Of a stretch of DNA of 64,000 bases, positions 43,193 to 61,019 are shown piece by piece. Position numbers and translations under genes: made by a program. Position 1 is the first letter of the stretch, and every line of letters begins with the position of its first letter. This DNA is from Anaerovorax sp. IOR16 (GTDB lineage Bacteria; Bacillota; Clostridia; Peptostreptococcales; Anaerovoracaceae): positions 1 to 64,000 of the forward strand of contig NZ_JADQTL010000012.1 of the NCBI RefSeq assembly GCF_017168145.1, in the 5' to 3' direction. Under the pieces are notes generated by a model that worked only from the letters and a program-made list of their open reading frames with translations, had not been told where the DNA came from and ran no database searches.

Positions 43193-43216
43193 GGGCCACC
43201 TCTACTTTCATAATAT

Positions 43217-44089: not shown

Positions 44090-44122
44090 AAGCTGTTCCT
44101 TCCTTCTCTCAAATTTATTTCA

Positions 44123-45448
44123 CTACATTTGAATTCTAATATTTTCGGATGTTACCGATATAACCGTACCGGAAATACTAGCATGGATATTACTTCCTAA
44201 CTTTCCTTCAGAAATCTTTGCAATTAAATCACCTTTATTTACGGTGTCGCCTTCCTTTATAACTGGATCAGATGTAGCACCAACATGCTGTCTTAAAGGA
44301 AGTGTTACCTTGTTAAAAGTCTTTTCTGAAACAATCATAGGTGCAGGCTTATCATATTTGGTTAGCCCTAGTTTCGAAATCAGTTTATTTACAGGATATT
44401 TTTTATACTCTCGAAACATTGCTGCTTTATCAGGCTGTAAATTCAGATTATTTCGTATACCTTGATTTAATAATTCATTCTTGAGAATTGCATTCATTTT
44501 CCAAGGTTGCAAATTTTGTATGCAAGCATATTCACATAAACGACATCCACAACACAAAAAAGCATTTATCGCATTTGTGTTTGAGTCACATACGTTTCCG
44601 TAACTCGGAATTCGTATCAATTTATGCGGTTCAATTCTATGGCCCAACAAACCTCTCGGACATACTTCTGTACAAAGACTACAATGCATACAAGCGGTTT
44701 TGGCTTCTCTCATCATACTAGAAACATCCTTTGTTAAACTGGTTATCAAAGAATGGTTTTCAGGCAATACAATCAATCCTTTTACCGTCTTTGTAATCAC
44801 ATCCTCGGTAGAAATTAATTTCCCCATCATCGGACCGCCATTAATGACCTTATAGTCATTTACTGTTGCTCCTCCAGCTAAATCAATTGCTTCTTTTACC
44901 GTAATTCCCAACGGTACTTTTACAGTTATTTGATTTGATACCTCACCGGTAACCGTTAAATATTTCTCTGTTACAGGCATTTTATCTATGTATGCTTTAT
45001 AAACATTAAGAGCAGTCTCAACATTTAATACGATTACACCAACGTTTAATGGCAATCCACCTTCAGGTACAATTCTTTTTGTCACTTCATATACAATGAC
45101 TTGCTCGTCACCGGCAGGATAGAAGTTATCCAAAAAATGAAGTTTGCATTTTGGATAATTATTTATATGTTTATAGAAAGCCTCTTCCGCATCATGATAT
45201 TTTCTTTTCAATGCAATGTAACCAGCTCTTGCTCCAACATGATCGACAATCAGCTGCAATGCTTGCAGAATCTTGTTTGCTTCATAAGCCATTAACTGTT
45301 GATCCACTCTTAAAAGAGGCTCGCATTCTGCTCCGTTTATAATGACATATTCGGCTTTTGCATTGTATTTTACATGACTGGGAAATCCAGCACCTCCTGC
45401 ACCTACTATACCTGCTTGTTCTACTAAAGCTGTTAAACTTTTTTCCAT
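44123..45448 (-). CDS. pduS: Cobalamin reductase PduS-like (RnfC-type)
   Basis: 441 residues. The RnfC/NQR-like N-terminus binds flavin and NADH (GIVGAGGAGFPSHVK, YVIINGAECEPLL). Two [4Fe-4S] motifs follow: CMHCSLCTEVCPRG at about 254-267 and CCGCRLCEYAC at about 298-308. A SLBB and a biotinyl-like domain close the protein. It reduces cob(III)alamin to cob(I)alamin for PduO inside the compartment. Its position between pduP and pduT supports that role. Confidence 0.92.
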   Translation of the reverse strand: MEKSLTALVEQAGIVGAGGAGFPSHVKYNAKAEYVIINGAECEPLLRVDQQLMAYEANKILQALQLIVDHVGARAGYIALKRKYHDAEEAFYKHINNYPKCKLHFLDNFYPAGDEQVIVYEVTKRIVPEGGLPLNVGVIVLNVETALNVYKAYIDKMPVTEKYLTVTGEVSNQITVKVPLGITVKEAIDLAGGATVNDYKVINGGPMMGKLISTEDVITKTVKGLIVLPENHSLITSLTKDVSSMMREAKTACMHCSLCTEVCPRGLLGHRIEPHKLIRIPSYGNVCDSNTNAINAFLCCGCRLCEYACIQNLQPWKMNAILKNELLNQGIRNNLNLQPDKAAMFREYKKYPVNKLISKLGLTKYDKPAPMIVSEKTFNKVTLPLRQHVGATSDPVIKEGDTVNKGDLIAKISEGKLGSNIHASISGTVISVTSENIRIQM

Positions 45449-45461
45449 GCTACCACCTCAT

Positions 45462-46868
45462 TTACCGTACATCCAATCCACCAACAAGGACACATCTTCT
45501 CTTTCTTGCGAAAGATTTTGCAGATGTAAGACCTTCACCGGTTGGACCTGCAATAGTAAATGTGGTATAGCCCTCTCCACCAACTCCAATGCCGGCATAA
45601 GACGGCCCATTCTTGACAAAGATAGTGGTTTGAATCAGTTTCGCCATCTTCGTCAGTTTATCGACATTCTTTGAATGCATAATTGCAGTATGTCTATTCC
45701 CGTGCTCTACTTCAATTGCAAGATCGATAGCCTCATCAACATCCTTCACACGTACAATTGGCAGAATCGGCATCATTAATTCCGTTTGTACAAAGGGATG
45801 TTGAATAGAAGTTTCCATTATTATTACTTTTATTTCCGACCCAACTTCAATTCCAACCTCTGAAAGAATATGCTTTGCACTTTTGCCAACGAAACTTGTT
45901 TTTGGTCCACCCTTTTCATTGATAACCAACTCTTCTAATTTCCTTATTACAGTTGAATCTTTTACTTCATAGGCACCTGATTTTTTCATATTAAAGATCA
46001 GATAATCGGCTATAGAATCAACTGCGAGTACTTCCTTTTCCGCAATACAAGGAAGATTGTTATCAAAGCTGCATCCTTTTACAATATCGTCTGCTGCTTT
46101 TTCAATGTCAGCGGTCTCATCTACTACAACCGGCGGATTACCAGCACCAGCACCGATGGCTTTTTTTCCGCTTGACAATACCGTTTTTACAATAGCTGGA
46201 CCACCCGTAGCAACAAGCATTCTAACTTTAGGATTTTCCATCATTAAGTTCGTATTTTCGATTGATGGCTCTTTTACTGTAACAATTAAATTTTTTGGAG
46301 CACCCGCTTTTTCTAACCCTTTATTAATCAATTTAATCAATGTTAAAGATACATTTTTTGCTCTTGGATGTGGACTAAATACTACAGAATTTCCTGCTGC
46401 AAGCATTCCGATTGAATTACAAATAATCGTTTCAGTTGGATTTGTTGTCGGTGCAATCGCACCGATTACTCCAAACGGTGAATACTCGACAATCGTCAAT
46501 CCATCATCTCCTGTCATCGCTTCCGTAGTTAAATCTTCAATTCCCGGAGATTTTTTAGCTGCCAATGTATTCTTAACTAGTTTATGTTCATACATTCCCA
46601 TGCCGGTCTCTTCCACGGTCATCTGAGAAATCAATTCTAAATTTTCTTTTTTAAGTACTACATTACGAATGACTTCTACATAATTTGCTCTATCAGACAT
46701 TTTGCAGTTCAAATACTTTTTTTGAGCAATTGCAGCAGCTTCCACAGCATCACTCATATTTTCAAAAATTCCATAACAATAGTCATCATTTCGTATCGAG
46801 TCATTTTCACCTACACTATCGATTACTTTTTTAACTAATTCCTCTACCATTTTTACGTCTATATTCAT
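45462..46868 (-). CDS. pduP: CoA-acylating propionaldehyde dehydrogenase
   Basis: 468 residues. The N-terminal helix VKMVEELVKKVIDSV resembles an encapsulation peptide. The aldehyde dehydrogenase core has PFGVIGAIAPTTNPTET and the catalytic Cys274 in NNLPCIAEKEV. It oxidises propionaldehyde to propionyl-CoA with NAD inside the BMC. It overlaps the preceding gene closely (two-base gap). Intact and of normal length. Confidence 0.94.
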   Translation of the reverse strand: MNIDVKMVEELVKKVIDSVGENDSIRNDDYCYGIFENMSDAVEAAAIAQKKYLNCKMSDRANYVEVIRNVVLKKENLELISQMTVEETGMGMYEHKLVKNTLAAKKSPGIEDLTTEAMTGDDGLTIVEYSPFGVIGAIAPTTNPTETIICNSIGMLAAGNSVVFSPHPRAKNVSLTLIKLINKGLEKAGAPKNLIVTVKEPSIENTNLMMENPKVRMLVATGGPAIVKTVLSSGKKAIGAGAGNPPVVVDETADIEKAADDIVKGCSFDNNLPCIAEKEVLAVDSIADYLIFNMKKSGAYEVKDSTVIRKLEELVINEKGGPKTSFVGKSAKHILSEVGIEVGSEIKVIIMETSIQHPFVQTELMMPILPIVRVKDVDEAIDLAIEVEHGNRHTAIMHSKNVDKLTKMAKLIQTTIFVKNGPSYAGIGVGGEGYTTFTIAGPTGEGLTSAKSFARKRRCVLVGGLDVR

Positions 46869-46869
46869 A

Positions 46870-47880
46870 CTAACCTCCTAAGACTTGATTTAAAGCAAAT
46901 TGTGCAATTGCGGTATCTTCTTGTGCACTGCCACCACTGACACCGATAGCGCCTACCACCTTCTCATCTATAATGCATGGAACTCCTCCTCCAAACGTAA
47001 TAATTTTTCCACAATCAAGATTTTGAAGTCCATAGAATTCCGAACCTGGCAATACCAAATCCGCCAATTCGTTGGTAGGCATTTTTAATGCGTTTGCCGT
47101 ATATGCCTTATTTACTGAAACCTGAATGCTGACTAAAAGAGACTCTTCCATCCTGTGAAGTAAGATTAAATTACCTCCCGAATCAACTGCCGAAAACACA
47201 ATTGGCACATTCTTCTCTTTCGCTTTTTCCTCTGCATACTGCGCCATCCGTTTTATCGTTTGCAGATTGTAAGCTTTATTTTCTTTGGTATCCTTTATAA
47301 TTCCAGCTTTCTTCATAGTCTCTCTTACTAGCTTTTCAACCTTCACTCTCATTTCTGCTTCTTTTGCATAAGTTTCTTCAAGCCTTGCCAATGCATAGAT
47401 TGCATCTGATAATCGATTCACATACTGAATCAAAACTTCTCTGATTTTTTCTTCACGTGCAGCAGTAATAATCACTCTTTCACTTCTTCGTATGATTGTT
47501 CTTGCAACATGCATTGTCGCTGATGCACTATTGATTCCGGGAACTACAAATTGCGTCTGTTTTCCAGTCTTCTCCGTACATGTATCAACAATGTTTTCTA
47601 AATCAGCTACATCATTTGCAGTAATTTTAGATTTTAAAAGATTTATCCCCTTTTCATCACTAGCTAATTCTGCACCAAGTATAAAGAGCTTCTTTTGTAT
47701 GCAATTGATACATTCCTTTATGTAAGAGTGTTCTGTTAATGAATAAGCAAATCCCAACATAGAATTTGCTTCATCAATCGTTCCGTAGCATCTTACCCTT
47801 GAGCTATCCTTCGAAACTCTTGACCCACCAACCAGGCCGGTTTGACCTTTATCACCCATTTTTGTATATAAGTTTGCCAA
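46870..47880 (-). CDS. pduO: ATP:cob(I)alamin adenosyltransferase PduO, two-domain
   Basis: 336 residues. Residues 1-190 form the adenosyltransferase domain (KMGDKGQTGLVGGSRVSK, RCYGTIDEANSMLG, ARTIIRRSERVI), and 200-336 the PduO C-terminal/GlcG-like domain (KMAQYAEEKAKEKN, VSVNKAYTANALKM). It makes adenosylcobalamin, the cofactor of the diol dehydratase. It lies between pduN and pduP. Confidence 0.94.
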   Translation of the reverse strand: MANLYTKMGDKGQTGLVGGSRVSKDSSRVRCYGTIDEANSMLGFAYSLTEHSYIKECINCIQKKLFILGAELASDEKGINLLKSKITANDVADLENIVDTCTEKTGKQTQFVVPGINSASATMHVARTIIRRSERVIITAAREEKIREVLIQYVNRLSDAIYALARLEETYAKEAEMRVKVEKLVRETMKKAGIIKDTKENKAYNLQTIKRMAQYAEEKAKEKNVPIVFSAVDSGGNLILLHRMEESLLVSIQVSVNKAYTANALKMPTNELADLVLPGSEFYGLQNLDCGKIITFGGGVPCIIDEKVVGAIGVSGGSAQEDTAIAQFALNQVLGG

Positions 47881-47891
47881 TACATCACATC

Positions 47892-48170
47892 CTATATATT
47901 TAATTCTACAGAATCTACAATACCTACAATGGTCGCGTCTACCGGTGATTTGGGATTTCCAAGGGCATACTTAGCGGAACTTCCCATTGAAATAATAACG
48001 ATTTCACCAGTACCGGCTCCTACGGTATCGACTGCGATTTCGGTTCTGCCGACTACCTCCATTTCGTCTGATAATTTTTTTATAAGCAACATCTTGTTTC
48101 CTACCAAATTATCATCCTTTCGTGTCGAAACAACCGTTCCGACTACTTTTGCTAAATACATATTAACCAC
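47892..48170 (-). CDS. pduN: BMC vertex protein PduN (EutN/CcmL family)
   Basis: 92 residues: MYLAKVVGTVVSTRKDDNLVGNK at the start and VDTVGAGTGEIVIISMGSSA in the middle are the family signatures. Pentamers of this protein cap the icosahedral vertices of the shell. It is intact. Confidence 0.93.
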   Translation of the reverse strand: MVNMYLAKVVGTVVSTRKDDNLVGNKMLLIKKLSDEMEVVGRTEIAVDTVGAGTGEIVIISMGSSAKYALGNPKSPVDATIVGIVDSVELNI

Positions 48171-48174
48171 CTAT

Positions 48175-48981
48175 TCATTCTCTAATTAACTGTATCTTAT
48201 TTTTTTTAGCTGTATCTTCTGCCAATTTGGTTACAAGTGCATTTTTGCCTATGATTATTTTGGGGAATGCAGAATTAATTAAAATATCTGAGTTTCCAAT
48301 CACTTTATTAGAAAGCACTGTATACTCTGCTTCTTTACCGCTTGCAGTATTTTCAACCAATTCCTTGTTTGTTGGCTTTTCTTGAAGTACTTTCCTTACA
48401 GTACTATCATACAAATGATCCACAGTCGTTAGATAGGCTCCATAAGAGGCTATTTTTTTCATATTATCTCTTAACTGTACTTTTAATGTTTCGGTCATTC
48501 TGTAGCCATTTTTAATATTTTCGTTATTATCCGGACAGCATCCGTCTATCGCAATAATTACTTTTTTACTTTTCATCAATGCATTTGATATAAACCTAGA
48601 AGCAGGGCTATCTGCAATGCCACAGGCTATTTTTGCCGCTGTGTTTCTAGTCATTGTCGGAACGATTACCGTTTCAAACTCCTTCACAAGGAGTTCGGGC
48701 ATTCCACAACGATCATCATCAATGAAAATCGGATGCAATCTTTGTTCAATTCTCGTGAAATCTAAAAGAAACTTGGCACTGTCTGATAGAAAAACATGGA
48801 AGGTGAATCCTTTTTCTCTCAACTTAGATAAATGATTCAAAGCTTCATCAAAATTCATAGGTGAGCCCGTAAAAACAACCAGCGCTTTTTTATTCCGATT
48901 CGATATTTTTTCTATTACTCTTTCAGCTATGTATGCAACAAGAACCTCTTCAATTATTTTTTCTAAATTTTCTTTTGACAT
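48175..48981 (-). CDS. BMC-associated flavoprotein, unknown function
   Basis: 268 residues. The N-terminal helix MSKENLEKIIEEVLVAY is amphipathic and like an encapsulation peptide. The remainder looks like a flavoprotein of the phosphopantothenoylcysteine-decarboxylase fold (ALVVFTGSPMNFDEALNHL; SDSAKFLLDF; VIVPTMTRNTAAKIACGIAD), with a two-Cys segment, DGCCPDNN. Its substrate is unknown. It occupies the slot between eutJ and pduN, as in Listeria-type pdu operons as I recall. It may support cobalamin reduction or reactivation. Confidence 0.65.
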   Translation of the reverse strand: MSKENLEKIIEEVLVAYIAERVIEKISNRNKKALVVFTGSPMNFDEALNHLSKLREKGFTFHVFLSDSAKFLLDFTRIEQRLHPIFIDDDRCGMPELLVKEFETVIVPTMTRNTAAKIACGIADSPASRFISNALMKSKKVIIAIDGCCPDNNENIKNGYRMTETLKVQLRDNMKKIASYGAYLTTVDHLYDSTVRKVLQEKPTNKELVENTASGKEAEYTVLSNKVIGNSDILINSAFPKIIIGKNALVTKLAEDTAKKNKIQLIRE

Positions 48982-48992
48982 AATACCACCAT

Positions 48993-49820
48993 CTAAATGA
49001 TACTATTCATTGCTATTCCGAGTGGCGTAACCAATAAAGGTTCTATGGGTTTTACTGTCGGAATACCAATGAATTTCTCAAATACCTTTTCAAAATCGCT
49101 GAAGCAACAAGCACCGCCAACCACATAAATTTGCTTTACATCAAACCCATCGATATAGTTTTTAATGATGGATGCCATTTTTTCAACGACCGGCTTCACA
49201 ACCGGAAAAATATCTTTTTCCTGAAAATGATCCTTTTTCAAAGATTCGGCTTCTTCAATGGTACTTTTGTTGAATCCAGCAAGTACAAGAGTCATATGCG
49301 TTCCCCCGGTTGCTTCATCATTTGTATAAATGACTTTACCATCTTTCAGTATACTGATTCCGGTTGTCCCACCTCCCACATCAACTACTGCACCATCCTT
49401 TAATCCAATGACAGTAGCTGCTGCGGTAGGTTCATCAATGATATTTGTTACTTGAAAGCCTGCAGCCTCTACGACGTTTGCAATCACCTTCACATTACCA
49501 TCGATTATCCCCGGTGGGATCGCTGTAGCCGCTGTTTGCAAAGTGACACCCAGCATTTGTTCAACCTGGCACTTTAAAATTTCAACAGCTTTACAAGCTC
49601 CAATATAATCAACAACAATACCATCTCTTACGACTGTGGAATTATGCATTGCCCCCGCAATGGGTCTATTCTGTTCGTCTACAACAGATAACACGATATT
49701 TGCTGTACCTAAATCAACACCACACTTTAATTTTCCTACATAGGGATTAAAGGTTTTATTACGAACAACCCTCGCAAATTCATCTAATAATTCATTGCAT
49801 TTTGTTAAATCAAATTCCAC
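48993..49820 (-). CDS. eutJ: EutJ-like actin/Hsp70-type chaperone
   Basis: 275 residues of the actin-like ATPase fold: CGVDLGTANIVLSVVDEQ (phosphate 1), VVDVGGGTTGISILKDG (phosphate 2) and QIYVVGGACCFSDFEKVF. EutJ is thought to help assemble or refold BMC cargo. Found in many Firmicute pdu operons. Intact. Confidence 0.88.
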   Translation of the reverse strand: MEFDLTKCNELLDEFARVVRNKTFNPYVGKLKCGVDLGTANIVLSVVDEQNRPIAGAMHNSTVVRDGIVVDYIGACKAVEILKCQVEQMLGVTLQTAATAIPPGIIDGNVKVIANVVEAAGFQVTNIIDEPTAAATVIGLKDGAVVDVGGGTTGISILKDGKVIYTNDEATGGTHMTLVLAGFNKSTIEEAESLKKDHFQEKDIFPVVKPVVEKMASIIKNYIDGFDVKQIYVVGGACCFSDFEKVFEKFIGIPTVKPIEPLLVTPLGIAMNSII

Positions 49821-49828
49821 AGTATCAC

Positions 49829-50479
49829 CTATTTTATAATCCTAACATTTTCATTATTTTTTACATTAACGGCATTGGCTTCATCCATATCAAGATGCAT
49901 TTCCAAAGCATCTTGATCGGAAACTCTGAGAAGAACATTTTTTAAAATGGCTCCTCTCTCCGTTCCAATCTCAACGTCAACAAAATCTCTGTCTTTTAAT
50001 CCAAGCTTTGATGCAACACTAGGAGGCATATGTATGTGCCTAGATGCTACAATCGTCCCTTGGGATTTTATAATTCCACCCTTCGGGCCAATGATCTCAA
50101 TACCGGGTGTACCCTCTAACTTACCGGATTCTCTTACCGGTGCTTTCACACCAAGAGCATAAGTATCACTCAATGATAGTTCTACCTGAGTTTGTGCCCT
50201 TAAAGGTCCTAAAACTCTAACTTTTTCAAATTGGCCTTTAGGACCTATCAAAGTCACTATCTCTTCAGCTGCGAACTGTCCCGGCTGCCTCAATTCTTTT
50301 ATTTTAGTAAGCTGTGAGCCTTTCCCGAACAGAATATCCATATCGCTCCTACAGAGATGTACATGTCGATTGGATACTCCTACGGGAATCGTTATGCTCT
50401 TGTTAGAGAGTGCCTCAATGACCAATTTTGTAACTACCCTTACTAATTCTTCTTCATTGGTTATATTCAAGGTACTCAT
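49829..50479 (-). CDS. pduL: Phosphate propanoyltransferase PduL
   Basis: 216 residues from ATG 50477-50479, six bases after GGAG; a TTG four codons earlier lies on the ribosome site. The N-terminal segment is encapsulation-like. The two zinc-binding PduL domains show VGVSNRHVHLCRSD and IVASRHIHMPPSVA. It converts propionyl-CoA and phosphate to propionyl phosphate and recycles CoA inside the compartment. Its partner kinase PduW is absent from this window. Confidence 0.94.
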   Translation of the reverse strand: MSTLNITNEEELVRVVTKLVIEALSNKSITIPVGVSNRHVHLCRSDMDILFGKGSQLTKIKELRQPGQFAAEEIVTLIGPKGQFEKVRVLGPLRAQTQVELSLSDTYALGVKAPVRESGKLEGTPGIEIIGPKGGIIKSQGTIVASRHIHMPPSVASKLGLKDRDFVDVEIGTERGAILKNVLLRVSDQDALEMHLDMDEANAVNVKNNENVRIIK

Positions 50480-50495
50480 GATTGACTCCAATTAC

Positions 50496-50771
50496 TTAAA
50501 GTGCCTTCGGAAGAAGGTTTTCAACATCTGTATGAGGTCTTGGAATAACGTGCTGAGATACGATTTCTCCAACTTTAGCAGCTGCACATGCGCCAGCATC
50601 AACGGCTGCCTTAACAGCTCCGACATCTCCTCGAACCATAACAGTAACCAATCCAGAACCGATCTTTTCATATCCAATTAACTTAACGTTAGCAGACTTT
50701 GTCATAGCATCTGCTGCTTCAATCGCACCTACTAAACCTTTTGTTTCAATCATTCCTAATGCTTCGTTCAT
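50496..50771 (-). CDS. pduJ: BMC hexamer shell protein PduJ/PduA-like
   Basis: 91 residues of one BMC domain: [40 protein letters not shown] and VISRPH-like end ([15 protein letters not shown]). It forms the hexagonal facet tiles with a central pore for substrates. This is the only short hexamer gene here; a separate pduA is missing. Confidence 0.93.
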
Positions 50772-50829
50772 AATAAAATCCTCCTATTAAACATTTTTTT
50801 ATTTAACAAATAAACTATTAGATTAAATT

Positions 50830-51447
50830 TTATTTAGTCACTTTTGTCCCACTTTTCTTGGTGGTCTTTTTTTGTGAGCTCTTTGGTTTTGTTTCTGATT
50901 TTTTATTCTCTTCTTTATTCGAAAGTTTCCTTTCCGGATTTTTTTGTTCTGCAATTATTTCTTTCGAATCCTCATTCTCTAAAATTTTATTGGAATTTGT
51001 TTCCTTATTTCCCAACAAATTTCCATTGGAATCAGTTAAATTCTCTAGCTGGCTGACTTCAGAATCGCTTAGAATCTCTGATTTAGCTTGAGAAGCTTGA
51101 ATTTCAGCCGGCTTATCCAAAGAGACAGTTTCTTTCTTGTGAAGAACAGGAGCAAGATGATAACCAACCGTCTGACGATTTCGTATCATAGATTCAAGAC
51201 CATCGGATGGTCTGGCAATCACTTTTACTCCAGCTACTCTTCCAACCGTTAACGCAGCTGCACTGGCTGCTTCTATAGCTGCCTTTACAGCACCGACATC
51301 GCCTTCTACCTTAATTACAGTTCTTCCAGAGCCTTTCACCAATTCATACCCTACTAATGTAACATTGGCAGATTTTACTGCTGCATCAGCTGCTGTAATA
51401 GCCGCTGTTAAACCGATCGCTTCAATTAAACCAAGGCTTTTCAGCAT
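50830..51447 (-). CDS. pduK: BMC hexamer shell protein PduK-like with long tail
   Basis: 205 residues: a BMC domain (1-90; KSLGLIEAIGLTAAITAADA, GAVKAAIEAASAAALTVG) followed by a 115-residue low-complexity extension rich in Lys, Ser, Glu and Thr, ending QKKTTKKSGTKVTK. PduK normally carries a C-terminal extension, but this one has no Cys and is strongly charged. The tail may lie in the lumen or cytosol as a linker. Intact frame. Confidence 0.85.
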   Translation of the reverse strand: MLKSLGLIEAIGLTAAITAADAAVKSANVTLVGYELVKGSGRTVIKVEGDVGAVKAAIEAASAAALTVGRVAGVKVIARPSDGLESMIRNRQTVGYHLAPVLHKKETVSLDKPAEIQASQAKSEILSDSEVSQLENLTDSNGNLLGNKETNSNKILENEDSKEIIAEQKNPERKLSNKEENKKSETKPKSSQKKTTKKSGTKVTK

Positions 51448-51483
51448 TACAAACTCACCTCCTCATACAAACCTGCAGTTTAC

Positions 51484-51846
51484 TTATTCATGAAATATAT
51501 TAAATGGCATTCTTTTTACTAATCGAGCGCTGTTTTGTCCGATTGCTCTAATCTTCTCAATACCTTCGTGTGTTGAAACATTGAATAAGGGTGAATCTTC
51601 TCTTAATTTTTCATAGTGTAAAGCCACATATCCATCTGATACTCCTATTCCAACTCCAAGTCTTGATTGTTGACAAGCATCGTATGCCATTTTGACATGA
51701 TTACTGCATTCCCCTACCAGTATTACTTCATAAGGAATTCCTTCCTCTTCAATGCCGTAGCATATCTGATTAAGGATATCTCCACCACCAAAATCCTTAT
51801 TTGCATGAATAATAATTGTCGGTTTTGACTCTTCATTTAACAACAT
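51484..51846 (-). CDS. pduH: Diol dehydratase reactivase small subunit
   Basis: 120 residues, the small subunit of the dehydratase-reactivating factor. It reads KPTIIIHANKDFGGGDIL, GIEEEGIPYEVILVGECSNH and GVSDGYVALHYEKLREDSP. It works with PduG to expel damaged cobalamin from the dehydratase. It follows pduG with a 2-base gap. Confidence 0.92.
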   Translation of the reverse strand: MLLNEESKPTIIIHANKDFGGGDILNQICYGIEEEGIPYEVILVGECSNHVKMAYDACQQSRLGVGIGVSDGYVALHYEKLREDSPLFNVSTHEGIEKIRAIGQNSARLVKRMPFNIFHE

Positions 51847-51848
51847 AA

Positions 51849-53678
51849 TTAACCATCTTTCTCTACTACAGACAAAACCAAGCCTGTAGCAACTGCATTC
51901 CTTGGTCCTTCAACACCTCTGATATTTGCTCGCCCTGAAACAACTCTGTATTGTGCAAGAGCATTGGTTACAAGCTGAGGTATTTCAAAATCCAAAGCAG
52001 AACCTCCAACCAGAACTACAAATTGGATGTCTCTTACATTACTTGTAGGACTAACTTTTCTGAGTGCTCTGATTGCATTCGTCACAAAAACCTTTTCCTT
52101 TGCAGTCTTTCTTATTAATTTAATTTTTTCTATGGAGTAATCTCCTTCAAGCGGTATCATTTCACCATCTTTTAAAATTACGACCTTAGCAAATGCATTT
52201 GCATCTAAAGGTTTTTCGAAAAATTCCACTGTTCCATTCTCATGTCTGATATGAAATAAGCTTTCGACTTTTGCAAGAGGATACTTTTTTATATCCTCAG
52301 CCATATTAAAGTCCTTTAATCCCAACTCCGACTGAATCAACATGGTTACCATATTACCGGCTCCTGCTAAATGAATGGATTTGATTGCTCCACTTGGAGT
52401 AATAATAGAAGCATCGGTTGATCCCGCTCCCATATCCAATATTGCAAGTGGCTTGTTCGTTCCTGGAGTTGTAAGAGCACCTAGAATCGCCATATCCGCC
52501 TCAACGCCCCCTACCTGAACAGGAACCTTTATTTTTTCTGTAAGTTCAGTCGCAATGAGCTCCATCTGCAGCTTATTTGCTTTTACCATCGCTGCGATTC
52601 CTACAGCGCTTTCTTGGGAAAATTCGTTTGCTAAGCCACCTTGTACTTTTTGAGGCGTATAAGTATCAACAGCAAGCAAATCACGGATTTTTATTTCCTT
52701 TGGATGCTGTCCAGTTAATTTTGACATAACCTGACGTACTCTTTCGAGCATACCACCCGCATTTGTCCCTGGTTCACCTTTTACGTCCTCAATATCTAAG
52801 GCTGCATTTACCGAATCCATAATTTTTTCAGAGCCTTCATCCACATTCACTTTGAATGATTTTGAACTACTCATGATTTCTATAGCTCCAGCCGGAATTT
52901 TCTTTTCCTTTATATCGCCCTTAGGTGTTTTAATAACTACAGCAGATCGATTACCAATCAAAGCCCTCGCTATCGGTACTACTTGTTTTGTTTCCTCAGA
53001 GCTTAAACCAAACATCGTTGCTATTCCATATGGGTTTGATAAAACTTCCACAACACCGCCTACACCGGCGACTTCAACTGCACATAGCATTCCAAGTGGA
53101 ACTTTATCAATGAGTTCAACCTCATCAACAATAGGTAATTTTTTCTTTAATCTATTGTTGATTAAGACTCCGTCGTCTTTTTTAGCAATAGCAGCTGTAA
53201 TATTTTTCTTCTCAGACAATTTGTTTATTGCTTCTGCAGCAATTTCAAAATCTACAGAAGTCGGAATCACAACTATATAGTTTTTATCTTCTTCTACGTT
53301 GTCTAAATCGGTTAGCAATATCGTCTCACCAACTCCTACACCAATCCCTCCGGGTGTTCCGGGATTATGACCAATCATAGTTGATTCTGTAATAATCGTT
53401 TCTGTAATGGTTTCCATGGCTACATCTCCGATGACCGGAGCTGCTTCATTGACCCTAATTTCATCCAGATCATCCAAACTCAATCCCGATTGTTCCAAGG
53501 CTTTTGTAAGTGATTTAAACAATCCACTAATATTAGCTGAGGTTCCTTTTATTCCGGTTGTAGAAACAATACTACTACCAAGAAATTCAACTTTATTATT
53601 CATAATTTTTCCAATCGCTGTTTCTGTAGTAGCATTTCCTATATCTATGCCCGCAATAATTTTCATAAGGCCCTCCAT
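51849..53678 (-). CDS. pduG: Diol dehydratase reactivase large subunit
   Basis: 609 residues with an actin-like ATPase fold: IIAGIDIGNATTETAIGKI at the N-terminus, DMGAGSTDASIITPSGA (about 411-427) and VVLVGGSALDFEIPQLV. It uses ATP to swap damaged cofactor for new adenosylcobalamin. Intact, with normal length for the family. Confidence 0.95.
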   Translation of the reverse strand: MEGLMKIIAGIDIGNATTETAIGKIMNNKVEFLGSSIVSTTGIKGTSANISGLFKSLTKALEQSGLSLDDLDEIRVNEAAPVIGDVAMETITETIITESTMIGHNPGTPGGIGVGVGETILLTDLDNVEEDKNYIVVIPTSVDFEIAAEAINKLSEKKNITAAIAKKDDGVLINNRLKKKLPIVDEVELIDKVPLGMLCAVEVAGVGGVVEVLSNPYGIATMFGLSSEETKQVVPIARALIGNRSAVVIKTPKGDIKEKKIPAGAIEIMSSSKSFKVNVDEGSEKIMDSVNAALDIEDVKGEPGTNAGGMLERVRQVMSKLTGQHPKEIKIRDLLAVDTYTPQKVQGGLANEFSQESAVGIAAMVKANKLQMELIATELTEKIKVPVQVGGVEADMAILGALTTPGTNKPLAILDMGAGSTDASIITPSGAIKSIHLAGAGNMVTMLIQSELGLKDFNMAEDIKKYPLAKVESLFHIRHENGTVEFFEKPLDANAFAKVVILKDGEMIPLEGDYSIEKIKLIRKTAKEKVFVTNAIRALRKVSPTSNVRDIQFVVLVGGSALDFEIPQLVTNALAQYRVVSGRANIRGVEGPRNAVATGLVLSVVEKDG

Positions 53679-53692
53679 CCATCTAATACTAA

Positions 53693-54205
53693 TTAATCTC
53701 TTCTTAATCTACCTCTTTTGCTATATACTTCTGCTGCTTCTTTAACAAATGTTGCATTAATGGAACAGCCATAAGTTTTTTCTAATTCCTCTGCGATCTC
53801 ATAAAGCTCTTCCTTAGTTGAGCGATAAGGTCTGAGTGCATTGTATATTTCAAGAAGTCTATCATCAGGTACCGCAATCAGTTCGGCAGCTCTTCTAAGA
53901 TTAGCGGCAAGAGCATCTCTGTCTACAGATTCTGCAACCTGAGCTTGTAGTTCTAATGTCTCAGGTGAAATTCTCATATCTTCCGCTGTCAATTGACCAT
54001 CTAATACTTGCTGAAGAGTCATATCGGAAAGTTTTTTCCCTGTCGGTGTAAAAATATTATCTGCCATTTTATCTCCCAATGGATAATTATCAGCAGTAAT
54101 CTTTTGCAGTTTGCAATTATCATCTTTGGTTGTGATTGATGAATTACCTGACATAGCTTTCATAACTTCTTCTACTATTTGTTTCATCAATAGTTCCTGA
54201 TTCAT
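53693..54205 (-). CDS. pduE: Diol dehydratase small subunit
   Basis: 170 residues. The N-terminus MNQELLMKQIVEEVMKAM is an encapsulation-like helix. The conserved core includes DNYPLGDKMADNIFTPTGKK and AAELIAVPDDRLLEIYNALRP. It is part of the alpha2-beta2-gamma2 B12-dependent dehydratase. It ends 14 bases before pduG. Confidence 0.94.
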   Translation of the reverse strand: MNQELLMKQIVEEVMKAMSGNSSITTKDDNCKLQKITADNYPLGDKMADNIFTPTGKKLSDMTLQQVLDGQLTAEDMRISPETLELQAQVAESVDRDALAANLRRAAELIAVPDDRLLEIYNALRPYRSTKEELYEIAEELEKTYGCSINATFVKEAAEVYSKRGRLRRD

Positions 54206-54216
54206 GTTTCACCCTC

Positions 54217-54885
54217 CTATTTGAAATCTACTTTTAGCAATTGTGGCTTTTTATTCATATCGACGTGTTCCGTTTCTTTGATATGAAGAAGCGCAGCTAT
54301 TGCTTGATATTTCGGTCTTGCCATTTGGTCATTTTTAACAGGAACCGGTGCAGGAGACTCACCCTTTGCATATTTTGCTGCATTTTTTCCTATTTTTCTG
54401 TATGTATCAAGATCAATAAGTGGTGCCTGCGAGAAAAGTTCAAGATTGGCAAGTGGGAACAAATCCTTCTGATGAATGACAGTTGTACCCTTTGACTGAA
54501 TGCCTATGCCGATTCCGGAACCACTAATCTTTGCAGAATCATGCGCAACAAACGATACATCAGATGTTCTGTAAACTTTTACAACTCTATATTTCACGCC
54601 TTCCTCTTCAATCCCTGCAATAATTTCCTTAATAACCTTATCATGCGGGATACCAGTAATCGTCTTTGTTTGATGTACTCCAAAAGCTGCGGCGACACCA
54701 ATTACGACCTCATTTGGCAATGTTCCTTTTTCAACATCCCCTACTTCAGTAACTACTAGTTTACTATCTGGGTTTGCAGCTTCTGATATCGACGTCATAC
54801 TTTCTTTCTTTGGTATAGAATCTAAATTCATTTCCTTTAAGACATCTTCAATGATATTTTTTAATATTTTTTCATCAAGTGCCAT
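54217..54885 (-). CDS. pduD: Diol dehydratase medium subunit
   Basis: 222 residues. The N-terminus [20 protein letters not shown] is the expected encapsulation helix, and the core contains [21 protein letters not shown] and [20 protein letters not shown]. It contacts the cobalamin with PduC. Intact. Confidence 0.95.
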
Positions 54886-54896
54886 ACTTCCACCTC

Positions 54897-56564
54897 CTAT
54901 TTCACATCTTCAGGACTAACAGCATTATGAATACTCTTAATCTGTTCCCATCTATCTTCACTAATTTGATATCCGGTCTGTGGACCACGATAATTATTAG
55001 GATAGTTTACAGCACTAATTACATGGAAATTTTCATCAACTATTGCAGATGTATGTAAATAGTCACCGGCAATTCTCTGTTTGAGCATCTTAAATATACT
55101 ATCCGCAACATCCGGGAATCCTGCTTTGTTCAATGCCTTAACAAAATCTACTCCAGTAATCTTCTTCGCCATCATTTCTTCAATAGCCTTAATATCTGCT
55201 GCCTGATCTCTATCCGGCATATCTTGGCTTCCATGAGCATAAGTCGCACATTCCACTTCTTCATCCGTAACTTCAGGTAGCCCAAGTTCTCTAAACAATC
55301 CCTGCATTACTCTTGCAGCTTTATTTCTTGCAGCTACAACAGTTTCTTCATCAACTGGCTGAAGTCCACCATCAATTTTTAAATCTCTTTGAATGATATT
55401 CCAATCATCATAATCTTCAGCATCCCAGTTTGAACCGGCAAACATATTATCATAATTTGGAGTCGAGCTATAACCGGAACAAATAAAGTCAGTGCCCGGA
55501 ACCATCTGCATTAAGGAACGTGCACATCTTCTTAAATCGGAATGTGTAAAGGTCTGGTCATTTGATGAAGCACATTCAAGGTCAAGAGCCATAGCAATTA
55601 AATTTTCTGCTAAAATTGCTCTGATTCCACCCGGAACACCGCCAGGTACACCAACGCAGCTTACAGAACCATTCTGAATGCCTTGAACACCTGCACCTTT
55701 TGTGACATACAAACAACGCGCCTCCAAATAAAGCATCGACTTACCTTCTGCATATCCCATTTGCACTTCTGAACCGGTACCAGATGTAAAACGCATCTTA
55801 AGACCTCTGGATGCATAACAGGACGCTAAAAATGTCTTTGAATACGGAGTATCATCTCCATCCATAAACACCGGTTCTGTACCATAAACAGATACCGTTT
55901 CTGCATAGGTAGTAAATCCTCTCATACCCATAATTAACTCAGTCGCTTCTTCTACCGCACATTGAGTAAGAATTCCGGGTCTACCAACTTGCGAACCAAT
56001 AAATATACCCATGGCATTAAATGGAGCAAGTCTTGCTACACCAACAGTAGTCTCTTGTTCATCAAATCCTCTTAATGCAGCTTCCGCAGCATCCGCAGCA
56101 ATCTGAACAAAAGAATCTTTTACATTTGTTACATGACACTGGTTGCTTGGAATTAATCTGGCTCTCATTTTTGTAACTGCCATCATCATTTCCAAGACAT
56201 TCATCTTGCCGACAACCTCAACTATTTTTGCAGGAGTCATGGATAGTGTTAAGTCTAAAATCTCTTTTCTTGGAACATTAATGTCACACATTTTCCTTGC
56301 AATTTCTAAAGAATCCATAGACATTACTTTTTCAGCATTTTCAACCTTAATCGCATAATCAGCAATATAAGTATCAAGCATATCGAATTCTGCTCTTGCT
56401 TTTCCATCTAATTCAACAATCTTTCCGTCTTTTATTTTAATACTCGGTTTTGGGTCGAAAGGACTGTTCATTGCAATCAAACCTACTTCCGGCCATTCGG
56501 TAACAAAACCATCTTGGTTCACCGGTCTGTTTGCTAATACTTCAAAACGTTTTGATTTTTTCAT
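54897..56564 (-). CDS. pduC: B12-dependent diol/glycerol dehydratase large subunit
   Basis: 555 residues of the TIM-barrel catalytic subunit. Residues equivalent to His143, Glu170, Glu221 and Asp335 of the Klebsiella oxytoca enzyme appear as H144 (NQCHVTN), E171 (DEQETTVG), E222 (YAETVSVYG) and D336 ([11 protein letters not shown]); S302 and Q337 near the substrate are also present. It dehydrates 1,2-propanediol or glycerol to an aldehyde by a radical route. Glycerol cannot be ruled out as substrate. Confidence 0.96.
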
Positions 56565-56584
56565 CCTCTTGCTCCTTTCCAGAT

Positions 56585-57388
56585 TTATAGTATGTAAGGT
56601 GTTGTTGTTGAATTAATAGGACTGCCATCCAAAGCACCAAGTAACTGCTTACCAACATCTCTTGCTGCCACAATTGCTTGCTTAACAGCACCAGAATCAC
56701 CAGAGAATGCCAAAATAACTTCGTTTGAATAGCTTGTTCCGCCATTTGCCGGACTGGAATATGCAAGTACATCAACCGTTGCAGCTTTTACTGCTGTATC
56801 TGCAAGTACTACGCCGATTGCCGCTGGTGCACCTACAGTAATACCAAATGATTTACCAATTGGTGCTCCAAATGCTTTATTTAAAGCAAAGCTTGCTCTC
56901 GCTGTATATTGAAACTCAAGATGACCTGCCGGAGTTCCGTATACATCACCAAACGTTCTATCTAAATCTTTTAAGCATACTTCAACGGCTCTTCGCACAT
57001 CGGATACGTCTTCTGCCCCAAAAATAATTAAGGAACCATGCCCTGCACCGCCTTCAGTATCTCTTGGCAATTCAATCGATAGGATGTCACTATTTGTAGC
57101 CTTTACCGCTTCATCTGCAGCAAAAATCTGAGGGCCTGCTCCGGTTCTTCCACCTACAATACCGATTGATCGATATTTTTTGTCAATACCCATCTTTTCA
57201 TGAATTTGGTGGTCTACGTTTGCAATTACTAACCCAATTGTATTTCCGGCAGCGGTACCAACAAATTCGGTTAGTCCGCAACTACCAACTGCACAAGATT
57301 GTGAAGCAGGTTGCTCTTTTGTTTGTTCGTTGCTGTCAACCTTCTTCATCACTTCTTCCAGAATTTTGCTCATTAATTCATCTTTCAT
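56585..57388 (-). CDS. pduB: BMC trimer shell protein PduB
   Basis: 267 residues: an N-terminal helix MKDELMSKILEEVMKKVDS, then two BMC domains (FVGTAAGNTIGLVIANVDHQ; FGAPIGKSFGITVGAPAAIG). It forms trimeric shell tiles with a larger pore and its N-terminus is thought to tether cargo. First gene of the pdu operon, with GGAGG before the ATG. pduA is not found upstream. Confidence 0.94.
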   Translation of the reverse strand: MKDELMSKILEEVMKKVDSNEQTKEQPASQSCAVGSCGLTEFVGTAAGNTIGLVIANVDHQIHEKMGIDKKYRSIGIVGGRTGAGPQIFAADEAVKATNSDILSIELPRDTEGGAGHGSLIIFGAEDVSDVRRAVEVCLKDLDRTFGDVYGTPAGHLEFQYTARASFALNKAFGAPIGKSFGITVGAPAAIGVVLADTAVKAATVDVLAYSSPANGGTSYSNEVILAFSGDSGAVKQAIVAARDVGKQLLGALDGSPINSTTTPYIL

Positions 57389-57445: not shown

Positions 57446-57705
57446 ATCTTTTTAAGTTTGCTGGTAATGGAACCTCCTTTTTCTGAATTTTTGTAAAATA
57501 GTTTTTATGCTTGGTATTATATAAAAGCAAAATAAAAAGTACGATGGATTTTCTTGGTGATATAATGCATTAAATTGCTGAAAAGAAATCCTATTTTATA
57601 GAGAAATTTTTTAACATGCACTTATTAGTGATGTGTTTTTTTGTTCTTTAAGGAAAAAATATTTCATTCGATAAACTTAGAATTAAATTTTTATATGAAG
57701 AAAAC

Positions 57706-57750
57706 AATAAAAAATCCGCTTACAGTGCAATTTTTCACTATAAGCGGATA
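57706..57750 (-). terminator. Terminator of the pdu regulator genes
   Basis: ATCCGCTTA (57714-57722) pairs with TAAGCGGAT (57741-57749), with partial continuation CAGTG/CACTA, followed on the minus strand by TTTTTTATT. Confidence 0.85.
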
Positions 57751-57773: not shown

Positions 57774-58826
57774 TTAATTTATCTTTAAATACTTATCTCG
57801 ATATTCAGAAGGAGTAAATCCTACATTCTTTTTAAATGCCTTACTGAAATAATTGGTTTCATTATAAGATAATTCATATGCAATATTAATAATTGGCATC
57901 TCCGTATAACGTAGCATTTCTTTTGCCAGTTCAATCTTACTGTTTGTAATATATGTAATAAAGTTATTCTTCGTTACCTTCTTAAATAATTTACTAAAGT
58001 AACAAGAACTCATATTTACATAATCTGCGGCTTCTTCCAAAGTAATTCCAAATTTAATATTTCGATCAATATAGTTTAAAACCTTAGTGATTTCATCAGA
58101 ATAATAGTAATCTTTATCTAGTTCATCAAACATTTGCGTAAGCATATCTGTAACTAATAAATAGGAATTATACCGTAAACCATATTTCTCAAACTTTAGT
58201 TTCACTTCTTTTGTTATGGTTTTAAAAATGTCTATATTATCTAAATTATACTCTTCTGCAATTTCTGTAATTCCTTGAAGATATCCTACTACCATTTCAC
58301 ATCTTTGATTGGTATCCAACTCTTCATTATATACATCATTTAAAAATGATTTCGCATAAATAATACATTTTTTATAAAGATGTTCTCTTATTCCAGATTT
58401 CAGCTGTTTTAATGACTCTTCAATCTTAGAAAATGCAAAATCCGTATTTAATAATTCGTTCTTTTCAATATATGGTTTCGCAATGGATAATAATAAATCT
58501 GGGCTGAATGGCTTTAGCAAATAGCCATCGGCTTTTAATTTCAAAACGGCATGAGCTACTTCTTTTTCACTCTTTGACGTAGTTAAAATTACAGAGGCAT
58601 TTGGATTTTTCTGCTTTGTAAATTTAACAAGATTCATTAGATTCAGACCCGAATTGGAAAGATTAGAAATAAGCAAATCGATAACACTTACATCTAATAA
58701 TTTATATGCCTCTTCACTATTCTCTGCCTCAAAAATATTATTTACATTATCGAAATGATGTTTTAAAACATCTTTTGTAACATATCTTTCAATTTTATCA
58801 TTATCTACAATAAGCACATTACACAT
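57774..58826 (-). CDS. AraC-type regulator with degenerate receiver domain
   Basis: 350 residues. Residues 1-115 align with a receiver domain, but the phospho-acceptor Asp is replaced by Asn (N55 in DLLISNLSNSG). The acidic pair is D8-N9 rather than two acids; the Thr of VILTTSK and Lys of LLKPFSP remain. A helical linker (115-240) is followed by an AraC/XylS DNA-binding domain (255-348) with GITLEEAADYVNMSSCYFSK and PIINIAYELSYNETNYFSKAF. Probably the activator of the pdu operon 386 bases downstream. Confidence 0.87.
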   Translation of the reverse strand: MCNVLIVDNDKIERYVTKDVLKHHFDNVNNIFEAENSEEAYKLLDVSVIDLLISNLSNSGLNLMNLVKFTKQKNPNASVILTTSKSEKEVAHAVLKLKADGYLLKPFSPDLLLSIAKPYIEKNELLNTDFAFSKIEESLKQLKSGIREHLYKKCIIYAKSFLNDVYNEELDTNQRCEMVVGYLQGITEIAEEYNLDNIDIFKTITKEVKLKFEKYGLRYNSYLLVTDMLTQMFDELDKDYYYSDEITKVLNYIDRNIKFGITLEEAADYVNMSSCYFSKLFKKVTKNNFITYITNSKIELAKEMLRYTEMPIINIAYELSYNETNYFSKAFKKNVGFTPSEYRDKYLKIN

Positions 58827-58865
58827 TTTTTTTCCTCCAAAAGTTTAATTCGTAAACTCAATTTA

Positions 58866-60104
58866 CTATATACTATTGATAGGTAATCTTAAATTCACCA
58901 TAGTGCCTACTTCATCGGTTAACTTTTTAATCATTAATTTATATTTCTTACCAAATAACCCCACCAAACACTTATTAATTTTGTATAATTCAAAACGATC
59001 CATTTCCAAATTCATTATGGAATCTTCATTCATTATATTTTCAATAGTATCTACCGGTATTCCAATACCGTTATCTTCAATCGAAACAATTATATCATTT
59101 TCTTTTTGAACACAATTTATTTTTATTTCTCCACCTTGTTTTTTTGGCTCTATTGCAAACTCTATCGCATATGCAACAATTGGTTGAATAATCATAAGCG
59201 GGCAGCTTACATTATAAAACTGCTCGTCTACATTTATTTTAAATTTTAATCTGTTTTCTAACCGTATACTCTGTAATTTCAAATAATTTTCTACATAAGT
59301 AATTTCATCTCCTAAAGTACTTATTTGATTATTAATGTTCTCTGCGGTATATCGAAGCATATTAGCCAATATATAAATTGAATTCTCTGTTCTTTTTGCA
59401 TTTTCTAAATAAGCTAATCTTGATATCACGCTTAAAATAGAAAAAAGGGAAGAATACTTTAAACCGAAGGAAGAGAGAAATTTGGTTTCCTTTATTCTTT
59501 TTTCTAAATCAAGTCTGATTCTTTTCTCTTCTAAAACTTCAAGCTGCTTTAATTCTAATTCATCTTGAACGCATTGAAGATTGCCTTTTTCCATTAAATT
59601 CTGCATATATTCAAACATTAAATTTACTACTGCTTTGATTCTGTTTAACGAAATCTTATTGACGCTGTTATACGCCTCAACAATTTCGGGTAAATCCTCC
59701 CAATTAGTTTTTCTCTCAATTACCTTTTCTAACTGAAGAGAATCCTCAAGATTTTCATAATTTGTACTGATTTGGCCACCCATGATTGCGCCATAATAAT
59801 TATCTTCATAAATTAATGGTACTGCAAAATCAATCAGTCCTGCATGGCAAATATAAATATGTGGTTTACCTGTTATTGCTGCATGCAATCCTCCATGTGC
59901 ATCACATTGGTAGCATAAATCTTTAAAATTTGGATTTTTTCTGCCTCTTGCGCAAAACTCAGTAAATCCACTTTGTTTTGTTACTGGTTTTCCTTTATAA
60001 TCAACTGTAATAAATGCCATTCCCACTGATTCAGCAAAATTATCTTGTATATTTTGTAGCTCTTCCGTATCAATAATATCGTGAATAGATCTAATCGTGT
60101 CCAT
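58866..60104 (-). CDS. PocR-domain sensor with degenerate LytS/YesM-type kinase
   Basis: 412 residues. Residues about 12-165 form a PocR-type sensory domain with Cys 51, 64, 67 and 86 (FCARGRKNPNF, LCYQCDAHGG, IYICHAG). A coiled coil (180-208) leads to a LytS/YesM-like region whose phospho-His motif NPHFLFN is replaced by KYSSLFS (216-222), and whose N-box ENA is replaced by AYA (QPIVAYAIEFAI, 307-318). A DNGIGIP glycine box (344-350) survives. It probably senses propanediol and signals without phosphotransfer. It is transcribed with the AraC gene, 39 bases apart. Confidence 0.85.
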   Translation of the reverse strand: MDTIRSIHDIIDTEELQNIQDNFAESVGMAFITVDYKGKPVTKQSGFTEFCARGRKNPNFKDLCYQCDAHGGLHAAITGKPHIYICHAGLIDFAVPLIYEDNYYGAIMGGQISTNYENLEDSLQLEKVIERKTNWEDLPEIVEAYNSVNKISLNRIKAVVNLMFEYMQNLMEKGNLQCVQDELELKQLEVLEEKRIRLDLEKRIKETKFLSSFGLKYSSLFSILSVISRLAYLENAKRTENSIYILANMLRYTAENINNQISTLGDEITYVENYLKLQSIRLENRLKFKINVDEQFYNVSCPLMIIQPIVAYAIEFAIEPKKQGGEIKINCVQKENDIIVSIEDNGIGIPVDTIENIMNEDSIMNLEMDRFELYKINKCLVGLFGKKYKLMIKKLTDEVGTMVNLRLPINSI

Positions 60105-60240
60105 ATTTCACCTCTCTTCACTTTTATCTTTTGTGAATAATTTGATTTTTCACTTAATTATATATTATAACAAAAAAATACTATCCTACAATGTATAAAA
60201 ACTTCCGTAAAGAGTAATTTTTTGTCCTATCTGAGAATTT

Positions 60241-60294
60241 ACTAAAAATGCCCAGTATACTAGAATCTATGATAGTACACTGGGCATTTTTAGT
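60241..60294. terminator. Bidirectional terminator after minD
   Basis: A long stem from 60241 (ACTAAAAATGCCCAGT) pairs with the segment ending 60294 (ACTGGGCATTTTTAGT). It ends minD transcription on the minus strand. Confidence 0.85.
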
Positions 60295-60299
60295 AAATT

Positions 60300-61019
60300 T
60301 TATCGTAAAATACGATCTACAATATGATTAAAATTGTCAGAAACGTATGTACCTTTCTTATAAACAATCGGGACTCCATTGTTTGCCGCAATGTGAATGT
60401 TTTCATCATATTGAATGACTCCAGCCATCTCCATTCGCAAAACTTCTGACATTTCTTCTAAGCTAGGAAAACTACCCTGTCCAAAGAGATCAGCCTTTAC
60501 CTTATTAACTACATATTTTCTCTTTGAAATTCCATAGTCGGTTAATATCCGATCTACCATATCGGCGTCACGAAGCGATGCATATTCTGGTATGGCAACA
60601 ATCACAGCACGATCTGCTCCCGCAGCTGCAAGTTCCAAACCACGTCCAATTCCCGTAGGTGCGTCCACAATGATATAATCAAACATTGATTTTAATTTCT
60701 CATAAAGAGATTCTACTTGAGCGATTTCCAAACTTGCTGTTTCTTTCCCTTGCGCTGCTGACATGAGATAGAGCTCTGGAAAGCGCCGATCCCTTATCAA
60801 GGCTTGCTTTAACCGACATACTCCAAATAATACATCTGCAACATCATATACAACACGACTTTCCATGCCTAAGCAGAGATCAAGATTTCGTAAGCCCATA
60901 TTCATATCCAAAAGCAACACTTTTGCATCTCGCTGTGCTAGAACAGCTCCCATATTCGCTGCAAAAACAGTTTTGCCTACGCCTCCTTTTCCTGAGGCGA
61001 TTACTATGACTTCCTTCAT
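60300..61019 (-). CDS. minD: Septum-site ATPase MinD
   Basis: 239 residues. Deviant Walker A SGKGGVGKTVFAANMG at the N-terminus, LLLDMNMGLRNLDLCLG, and YIIVDAPTGIGRGLELAAAG. MinD localises the division inhibitor. The canonical C-terminal membrane helix is short (NHIVDRILR), so membrane binding may be weak. No minC or minE is adjacent; the gene follows mrdA by 14 bases and is closed by a terminator. A ParA/MinD-type paralogue is an alternative. Confidence 0.88.
   Translation of the reverse strand: MKEVIVIASGKGGVGKTVFAANMGAVLAQRDAKVLLLDMNMGLRNLDLCLGMESRVVYDVADVLFGVCRLKQALIRDRRFPELYLMSAAQGKETASLEIAQVESLYEKLKSMFDYIIVDAPTGIGRGLELAAAGADRAVIVAIPEYASLRDADMVDRILTDYGISKRKYVVNKVKADLFGQGSFPSLEEMSEVLRMEMAGVIQYDENIHIAANNGVPIVYKKGTYVSDNFNHIVDRILR

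Follow-up and report, generated by a model that had tools for sequence, protein, structure and literature searches.

A putative phosphorylation-free sensor-regulator pair ahead of a pdu microcompartment operon in Anaerovorax sp. IOR16

A 64,000-nucleotide stretch of Anaerovorax sp. IOR16 (contig NZ_JADQTL010000012.1, positions 1 to 64,000; hereafter the window) carries, immediately ahead of a pdu microcompartment operon and like it on the minus strand, a sensor gene and a regulator gene of two-component type. The sensor lacks the phospho-acceptor His of its kinase class and the regulator lacks the phospho-acceptor Asp of its receiver, and, judging from their substitution patterns, both partners are kept by purifying selection and are no relics. 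We give about even credence to the reading that a two-component system has here become a phosphorylation-free switch working by contact. Such a switch would be unusual and is testable, and the loss in both partners, together with its stepwise order, is new as far as literature searches show.

Catalytic losses in the sensor and the regulator

58866-60104, minus strand: pseudo-sensor gene, an intact open reading frame (ORF) of 412 aa with PocR, helices like those of the dimerisation and histidine phosphotransfer (DHp) domain, and an ATPase-like domain
59583-60080, minus strand: PocR ligand-sensing domain, residues 9-174 (PF10114, 155.9-157.5 bits)
59439-59459, minus strand: lost phospho-acceptor motif, KYSSLFS for NPHFLFN, residues 216-222, with Ser218 for His (alignments)
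59154-59186, minus strand: lost N-box, QPIVAYAIEFA, residues 307-317, with Tyr312 for Asn (alignments)
59055-59078, minus strand: retained G1 box, EDNGIGIP, residues 343-350 (alignment)
58962-59003, minus strand: lost G2 box, MDRFELYKINKCLV, residues 368-381 (alignments; coordinates hand-counted from residue numbers)
57774-58826, minus strand: regulator gene, an intact ORF of 350 aa with an Asp-less receiver and an AraC-type DNA-binding domain
58797-58805, minus strand: altered acid pair, Asp8-Asn9-Asp10 (alignments)
58662-58664, minus strand: Asn55 in place of the phospho-acceptor Asp (alignments)
58512-58580, minus strand: retained switch residues Thr83, Tyr102 and Lys105, present in all six degenerate receivers of the pdu clade described below

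The sensor matches PocR, His_kinase (42.4 bits) and HATPase_c (31.6 bits) in Pfam, all above cut-off, and is of the type that joins PocR to a LytS/YesM-type kinase. The canonical pair used for comparison, from Candidatus Petromonas tenebris (L006/L127, the same sequences as L062), is 42% identical to the sensor and 36% to the regulator. A preliminary description made from the letters alone had read KYSSLFS as the counterpart of NPHFLFN and had found no Asn in the N-box, and the alignments agree with it on both points; to these losses we add that of the G2 box (DRFELYKINKCL against TGIGINNVDKRL in the alignment), which leaves G1 alone among the features of a working LytS/YesM-type kinase. Takeover by a neighbouring His, which would have undone that description, is ruled out, since the sensor has five His in all (residues 8, 70, 74, 82 and 87), each ahead of the kinase part and none beyond residue 87. 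A genome-wide tendency to His loss is likewise ruled out: among 13 PF06580 matches in this genome and three relatives (G000, G001, G290 and G406), the four pdu-type sensors lack the His and the other nine, including a second PocR sensor of G290, retain it (eight with PHF, one with AHF).

The regulator matches Response_reg (PF00072, 55.6 bits) and HTH_18 (70.6 bits), again above cut-off. Its Asn55 and the Asp-Asn in place of two acids, both noted in the preliminary description, stood up to alignment, the altered acid being Asn9. The protein therefore lacks what a phosphorylated response regulator has, a phospho-Asp and an acid pair, and it fits the Asp-less (pseudo-) receivers, since it retains the fold and the family match of a receiver although the Asp is gone. 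AlphaFold2 models gave a mean predicted local distance difference test score (pLDDT) of 84 and a predicted template modelling score (pTM) of 0.48 for the sensor, whose best solved-structure match was the GanS kinase domain, and of 88 and 0.45 for the regulator, whose receiver fold is normal; many receivers tied on Z at the top of the regulator fold search, many rows covering residues 1-129 only. Because both pTM values are low, neither model predicts the domain arrangement. We label the sensor a pseudo-histidine kinase on account of its catalytic loss and its constraint; its use in signalling is putative.

Some phosphochemistry might persist if Asn55 were deamidated to Asp or if another kinase acted on the system. 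Deamidation of Asn to Asp at the equivalent position has been reported for a receiver, according to the available part of one paper (PMC4395418), and three of the four PF06580 matches in G000 are His-bearing LytS/YesM-type kinases. Against this stand the replacement of the second acid by Asn9 as well, an adjacent sensor without His, N-box Asn or G2, and the retention of Asn55 itself in four species, and we consider such residual phosphotransfer improbable.

Purifying selection and the probable order of loss

Constraint was estimated as the ratio of nonsynonymous to synonymous substitution rates (dN/dS, NG86) between the window and its congener L126 (84-85% identity). The ratios were 0.07 for PocR, 0.03 for DHp and 0.05 for the catalytic and ATP-binding (CA) domain of the sensor, and 0.06 for the receiver and 0.02 for the helix-turn-helix (HTH) domain of the regulator; the linkers were higher (0.16 and 0.07), and the whole genes stood at 0.07 (sensor) and 0.05 (regulator), all of these figures being rough because dS exceeds 1. 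In most comparisons beyond this one dS was saturated and gave no ratio; canonical pairs with a usable ratio fell between 0.03 and 0.20 for the whole sensor or regulator. That both genes are functionless, decaying remnants would explain the absence of catalytic motifs from both partners, and is strongly disfavoured, to the point of being very improbable: pseudogene decay is rejected on the low dN/dS, on frames that stay open in four species from two genera, and on the conserved promoter blocks described below.

The losses recur among relatives, as the preliminary description had proposed to check. His, second acid and Asp are all missing in 4/4 genomes of the two nearest genera found, two from the window's genus and the other two, G290 and G406, from the second, and both phospho-acceptors are gone again in five genomes of another family, discussed below. 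Two further genera of the window's family (G439 and G458) have lost the His and the second acid and keep the Asp, while G444 keeps both His and Asp (its search match has one stop, yet a frame of 380 aa is open in L216). The six degenerate pdu pairs form one clade (Shimodaira-Hasegawa-like approximate likelihood-ratio test, SH-aLRT, 100) and the four without Asp a subclade (SH-aLRT 99); their neighbours in the tree are the canonical pairs L147, L152 and L153 (fork support 85 and 82) and L216. These were "quick" trees, and the G2 columns excluded from the final tree were shifted by two residues. Since two genera are His-less and Asp-bearing and the neighbouring pairs are canonical, the His was probably lost before the Asp in the window's family.

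A wider survey drew on an order search (393 genomes, 81 with a match at E 1e-40), a family search (349 genomes, 18 at 1e-50), a class search (391 genomes, 23 at 1e-60) and a named-species collection (64 loci); 68 regions, and later six more, from among the listed genome matches were analysed. Scanning contigs with the window sensor as single query returned no relative, and plasmid records held distant relatives only, the best at 32.4% identity. The 88 matches of at least 150 bits reduced to 79 distinct sensors, of which 76 had a regulator next to them; diol dehydratase or shell genes occur in the retrieved stretch at 64 of the 79 loci, and several of the 15 without are on short contigs. The His is missing in 17/79 sensors, a share that is no estimate of prevalence because resemblance to the window sensor was the search criterion. 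Before pairs were counted, L156, L236 and L217 (no adjacent regulator) and L143, L162, L231, L232 and L240 (truncated, gappy or unlike regulator) were removed and L253-L258 were added, giving 77 pairs. The Asp was missing in 9/20 His-less pairs vs 0/57 His-bearing ones, and the receiver quintet (acid pair, Asp, Thr/Ser, Lys) was broken in 17/20 vs 2/57. Fisher tests give p 1e-6 for the Asp and 4e-12 for the quintet, values that ignore kinship and are not to be taken at face value; parsimony on the same pairs counts six His changes and two Asp changes.

Partly dead systems were also seen in this survey. His-less PocR sensors stand beside Asp-keeping regulators at L150, L151, L228, L239, L229, L163, L164, L165 and L237, and L156 is a His-less PocR sensor with no adjacent regulator; in these ten sensors the His is replaced by Asn, Glu, Asp, Tyr, Phe or Cys.

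Proposed contact signalling and its alternatives

The preliminary description had suggested, from the matched loss, a PocR-type sensor that signals by direct protein contact or by ligand-induced conformational change. The matched loss is borne out, and contact is the best remaining option for the mode of signalling, though unproven. Direct contact signalling is probable because both partners have lost the parts for phosphate transfer yet remain under selection. In the sensor, selection has retained the ligand-sensing domain and the dimerisation helices; in the regulator, it has retained the DNA-binding domain and a receiver fold that still carries the Thr-Tyr-Lys switch residues. The ligand of PocR would be a small alcohol, most likely 1,2-propanediol, and the ligand-bound domain would alter the pseudo-kinase dimer via the connecting coiled coil. 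The dimer would then make direct contact with the pseudo-receiver, comparable to the docking of kinase and regulator that precedes phosphotransfer, and this contact would set whether the regulator activates the pdu promoter, the bound sensor either helping or restraining it until ligand arrives.

Alternatively, the changes in the pocket might have locked the regulator active (or inactive), in which case it would be governed by its amount only and the sensor would titrate it or act elsewhere. A conserved block lies upstream of the sensor gene too, expression-level control is among the mechanisms proposed for pseudo-receivers in the available sections of a 2025 review (PMC12632262), and Glu, found at the Asp position in three of the five receivers of the second clade introduced below, could mimic phosphate. 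Set against this, the sensor is constrained like the regulator (0.07 vs 0.05) and its PocR signature is kept, so its sensing should still matter: of the 15 signature positions, defined as those at least 95% conserved among the 57 His-bearing sensors, 12 carry the identical residue in each of the 11 degenerate sensors compared. We consider control by level only unlikely.

The sensor might instead be a nucleotide- or ligand-gated sequestering protein that holds the regulator off DNA until the diol frees it, which is the contact model with a negative sign. The same retained folds and constraint would fit this, and Asp344 of the G1 box, kept in 6/6 pdu-clade degenerate sensors, suggests that some nucleotide binding may remain. 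The same Asp is lost in 5/5 second-clade sensors, however, so nucleotide binding is no general need, and the present evidence fits either sign of control; we judge sequestration a rather doubtful variant.

The second clade came to light through L238, a doubly degenerate pair beside a glycyl-radical-enzyme operon, which prompted a search of its family (40 genomes, of which 36 gave some match at E 1e-25, the identity being 23-27% in most cases). The sequences examined were the top five matches, L238 among them (L238, L253-L256), together with L257 and L258, both canonical. In all five top matches the His, the Asp and the G1 Asp are gone, with Glu at the Asp position in three and Asn in two; only one of the five regulators reaches the Pfam receiver cut-off, and all five sensors match PocR (132-147 bits). 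All five pairs face, in the opposite direction, an operon with shell genes and homologues of the L238 glycyl-radical enzyme and its activase. The L238 enzyme scores highest as a (2S)-3-sulfopropanediol dehydratase, at 959 bits, just below the 1000-bit cut-off. We tentatively suggest, with somewhat less than even confidence, that PocR two-component systems of microcompartment operons were converted at least twice to phosphate-free, ligand-gated contact relays in which the receiver Asp was lost after the kinase His. One conversion would have taken place at pdu loci of the window's family, and another, in a different family, at glycyl-radical-enzyme loci that possibly serve sulfopropanediol.

Several results weigh against these interpretations. 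Joining the six pdu-clade and five second-clade pairs was not rejected by the approximately unbiased (AU) test (p 0.302). When the joined group was reduced to the five second-clade pairs plus the four doubly dead pdu pairs, it was borderline rejected (p 0.0398, for a group picked after inspection of the tree and with long branches present), and two separate Asp losses are on these two values favoured, not proven, so that the independence of the second clade is borderline. On a 72-row tree with a single second-clade row, only four independent contrasts were available for His against quintet, 2.7 on average going the same way and 0.0 the opposite way, which is not significant; for His against Asp the values were 0.3 and 0.0. 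The His-less pairs L237, L164 and L165 have an intact quintet. Within the four doubly dead pairs, conservation in the receiver is highest in the beta4-alpha5 part (0.77), a trend likewise present in one canonical set. Conservation of the coiled coil that links PocR to DHp is 0.47 in these four vs 0.60-0.93 in three canonical sets, which argues somewhat against a rigid relay, and DHp helix 1, at 0.75, is below two of the three (0.72, 0.95, 1.00). The CA domain, by contrast, is no less conserved (0.62) than in the canonical sets (0.52-0.63), in keeping with its retention.

The pdu locus and related systems

42644-57388, minus strand: pdu microcompartment operon, downstream of the regulator (family matches)
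57714-57749, minus strand: terminator-like hairpin and T-run between the regulator and pduB
57541-57562, minus strand: conserved block TATCACCAAGAAAATCCATCGT, candidate operator overlapping the -35 of the pduB promoter, kept in four species of two genera
57516-57521, minus strand: -10 of the pduB promoter, TATAAT (by eye; its -35 is poor)
60209-60227, minus strand: conserved block GGACAAAAAATTACTCTTT, candidate operator upstream of the sensor promoter, kept in the same four species
60186-60191 and 60164-60169, minus strand: -35 (TTGTAG) and -10 (TATAAT) of the sensor promoter (by eye)

The operon encodes pduB, the large, medium and small subunits of diol dehydratase, the reactivase pduG, a small reactivase-like protein and shell proteins, along with pduL-, eutJ-, pduO-, pduP- and pduS/rnfC-like genes and a pduT-like shell protein. 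From its position, and from the literature on relatives, the sensor-regulator pair would govern this operon. Terminator-like sites of the type between regulator and pduB number two in the region on both strands, vs 0.9 expected from shuffles. A single operator common to both promoters finds weak backing in the matrix ranks: scored against a matrix derived from the four sensor promoters, the pdu site of the window comes fourth (tied) in 64 kb at 10.2 bits, the L126 and L213 sites come fifth, and the L128 site is outside its top eight. The pduB block tops its four loci by construction, because its matrix was made from them, and that matrix finds nothing above 12.1 bits in L214, L215, L127 or L147.

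Other features of the neighbourhood were noted in passing. Between a minD-like gene and the sensor gene, at 60210-60300, lies a long hairpin followed by a T-run (by eye), whose L126 counterpart still forms a hairpin with changed stem letters; an Rfam scan of the window gave no match. Within the operon, at 43217-44089, a membrane-like protein of 290 aa has homologues at other such loci and matches nothing in Pfam or NCBIfam at the cut-offs used. A transposase in two ORFs (DUF772, DDE_Tnp_1_6) lies at the operon's end on the opposite strand (41128-42491). In the His-less, Asp-bearing species L214 and L215, a gene for a small hydrophobic protein starting MKPRI stands between the regulator and the pdu genes (by eye).

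Salmonella PocR is a one-component regulator that unites PocR sensing and an AraC-type output for pdu genes and works without phosphate. Its function is also treated in the available text of a paper on Acetobacterium woodii (PMC7593272). Unlike it, the window pair divides these domains between two separate ORFs, with a relic kinase and receiver between them; each protein matches only part of the NCBIfam model TransRegPocR, far below its cut-off (108.7 and 85.3 bits vs 500). Two further PocR proteins of the genome, L002 and L003 (G000:C12:110630 and G000:C10:547419), are single chains ending in an AraC-like HTH (by eye), and may serve corrinoid methyl metabolism, since L003 adjoins a methyltransferase-like gene.

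PocR-sensor two-component systems at pdu loci, pseudo-kinases and Asp-less receivers are already known. According to the available text of Axen et al. (2014; PMC4207490), PDU1D loci have a two-component system with a PocR-domain kinase, and Clostridium butyricum has a similar one for 1,3-propanediol synthesis. The window falls within this type, with PocR on a His_kinase/HATPase_c protein by Pfam, an adjacent response regulator and a pdu microcompartment operon; like the PDU1D loci and the A. woodii pdu cluster, it has its sensor kinase and response regulator genes directly before the operon. In A. woodii, as the portion of the paper at hand describes it, the regulator, after treatment with acetyl phosphate, bound DNA upstream of both pduA and the kinase gene, and 1,2-propanediol induced the pduA promoter 25-fold (PMC7593272). 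Those systems are treated in the accessible text as ordinary phosphotransfer, whereas the window pair is without His, N-box, G2, acid pair and Asp. The preliminary description had also proposed a possible undescribed mode of control for pdu genes; the class of system was described in 2014 (PMC4207490, in the text available), and what the searches leave as new is the double loss and its stepwise order.

Single losses of either kind are on record. The consulted part of the 2025 review gives a missing His in 0.9% of HisKA and 0.3% of HisKA_3 kinases and a missing Asp in 2.0% of receivers (PMC12632262), and Asn makes up 16% of the substitutions in Asp-less receivers, with RitR as an Asn example, in the accessible text of another paper (PMC4395418). 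Like RitR (Asn53; PMC4395418, PMC12632262), the regulator has a receiver fold with Asn for the phospho-Asp, and like the pseudo-histidine kinases of Collins and Childers, as cited in PMC12632262, the sensor has a kinase fold that misses phosphotransfer steps and is kept in a signalling setting; the window sensor differs from that concept in that its partner regulator is dead too. The pseudo-receivers given as examples in the available review text are governed by redox, ligands, covalent changes or other partners, and its sections 19-20 name none with its own adjacent His-less kinase (PMC12632262). We found no report of a matched pair of His-less sensor and Asp-less regulator in the literature searched, most subscription papers being outside reach.

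How bacterial pseudo-receivers are switched on and off remains a mystery, in the words available from the same review (PMC12632262). The window's family offers a natural series of canonical, kinase-dead and both-dead pairs before comparable operons with a likely known inducer, and such a series directly tests both whether contact between kinase and regulator can carry a signal by itself and in what order phosphotransfer is lost. Annotations of a "two-component system" at microcompartment loci can, moreover, conceal phosphate-free regulators.

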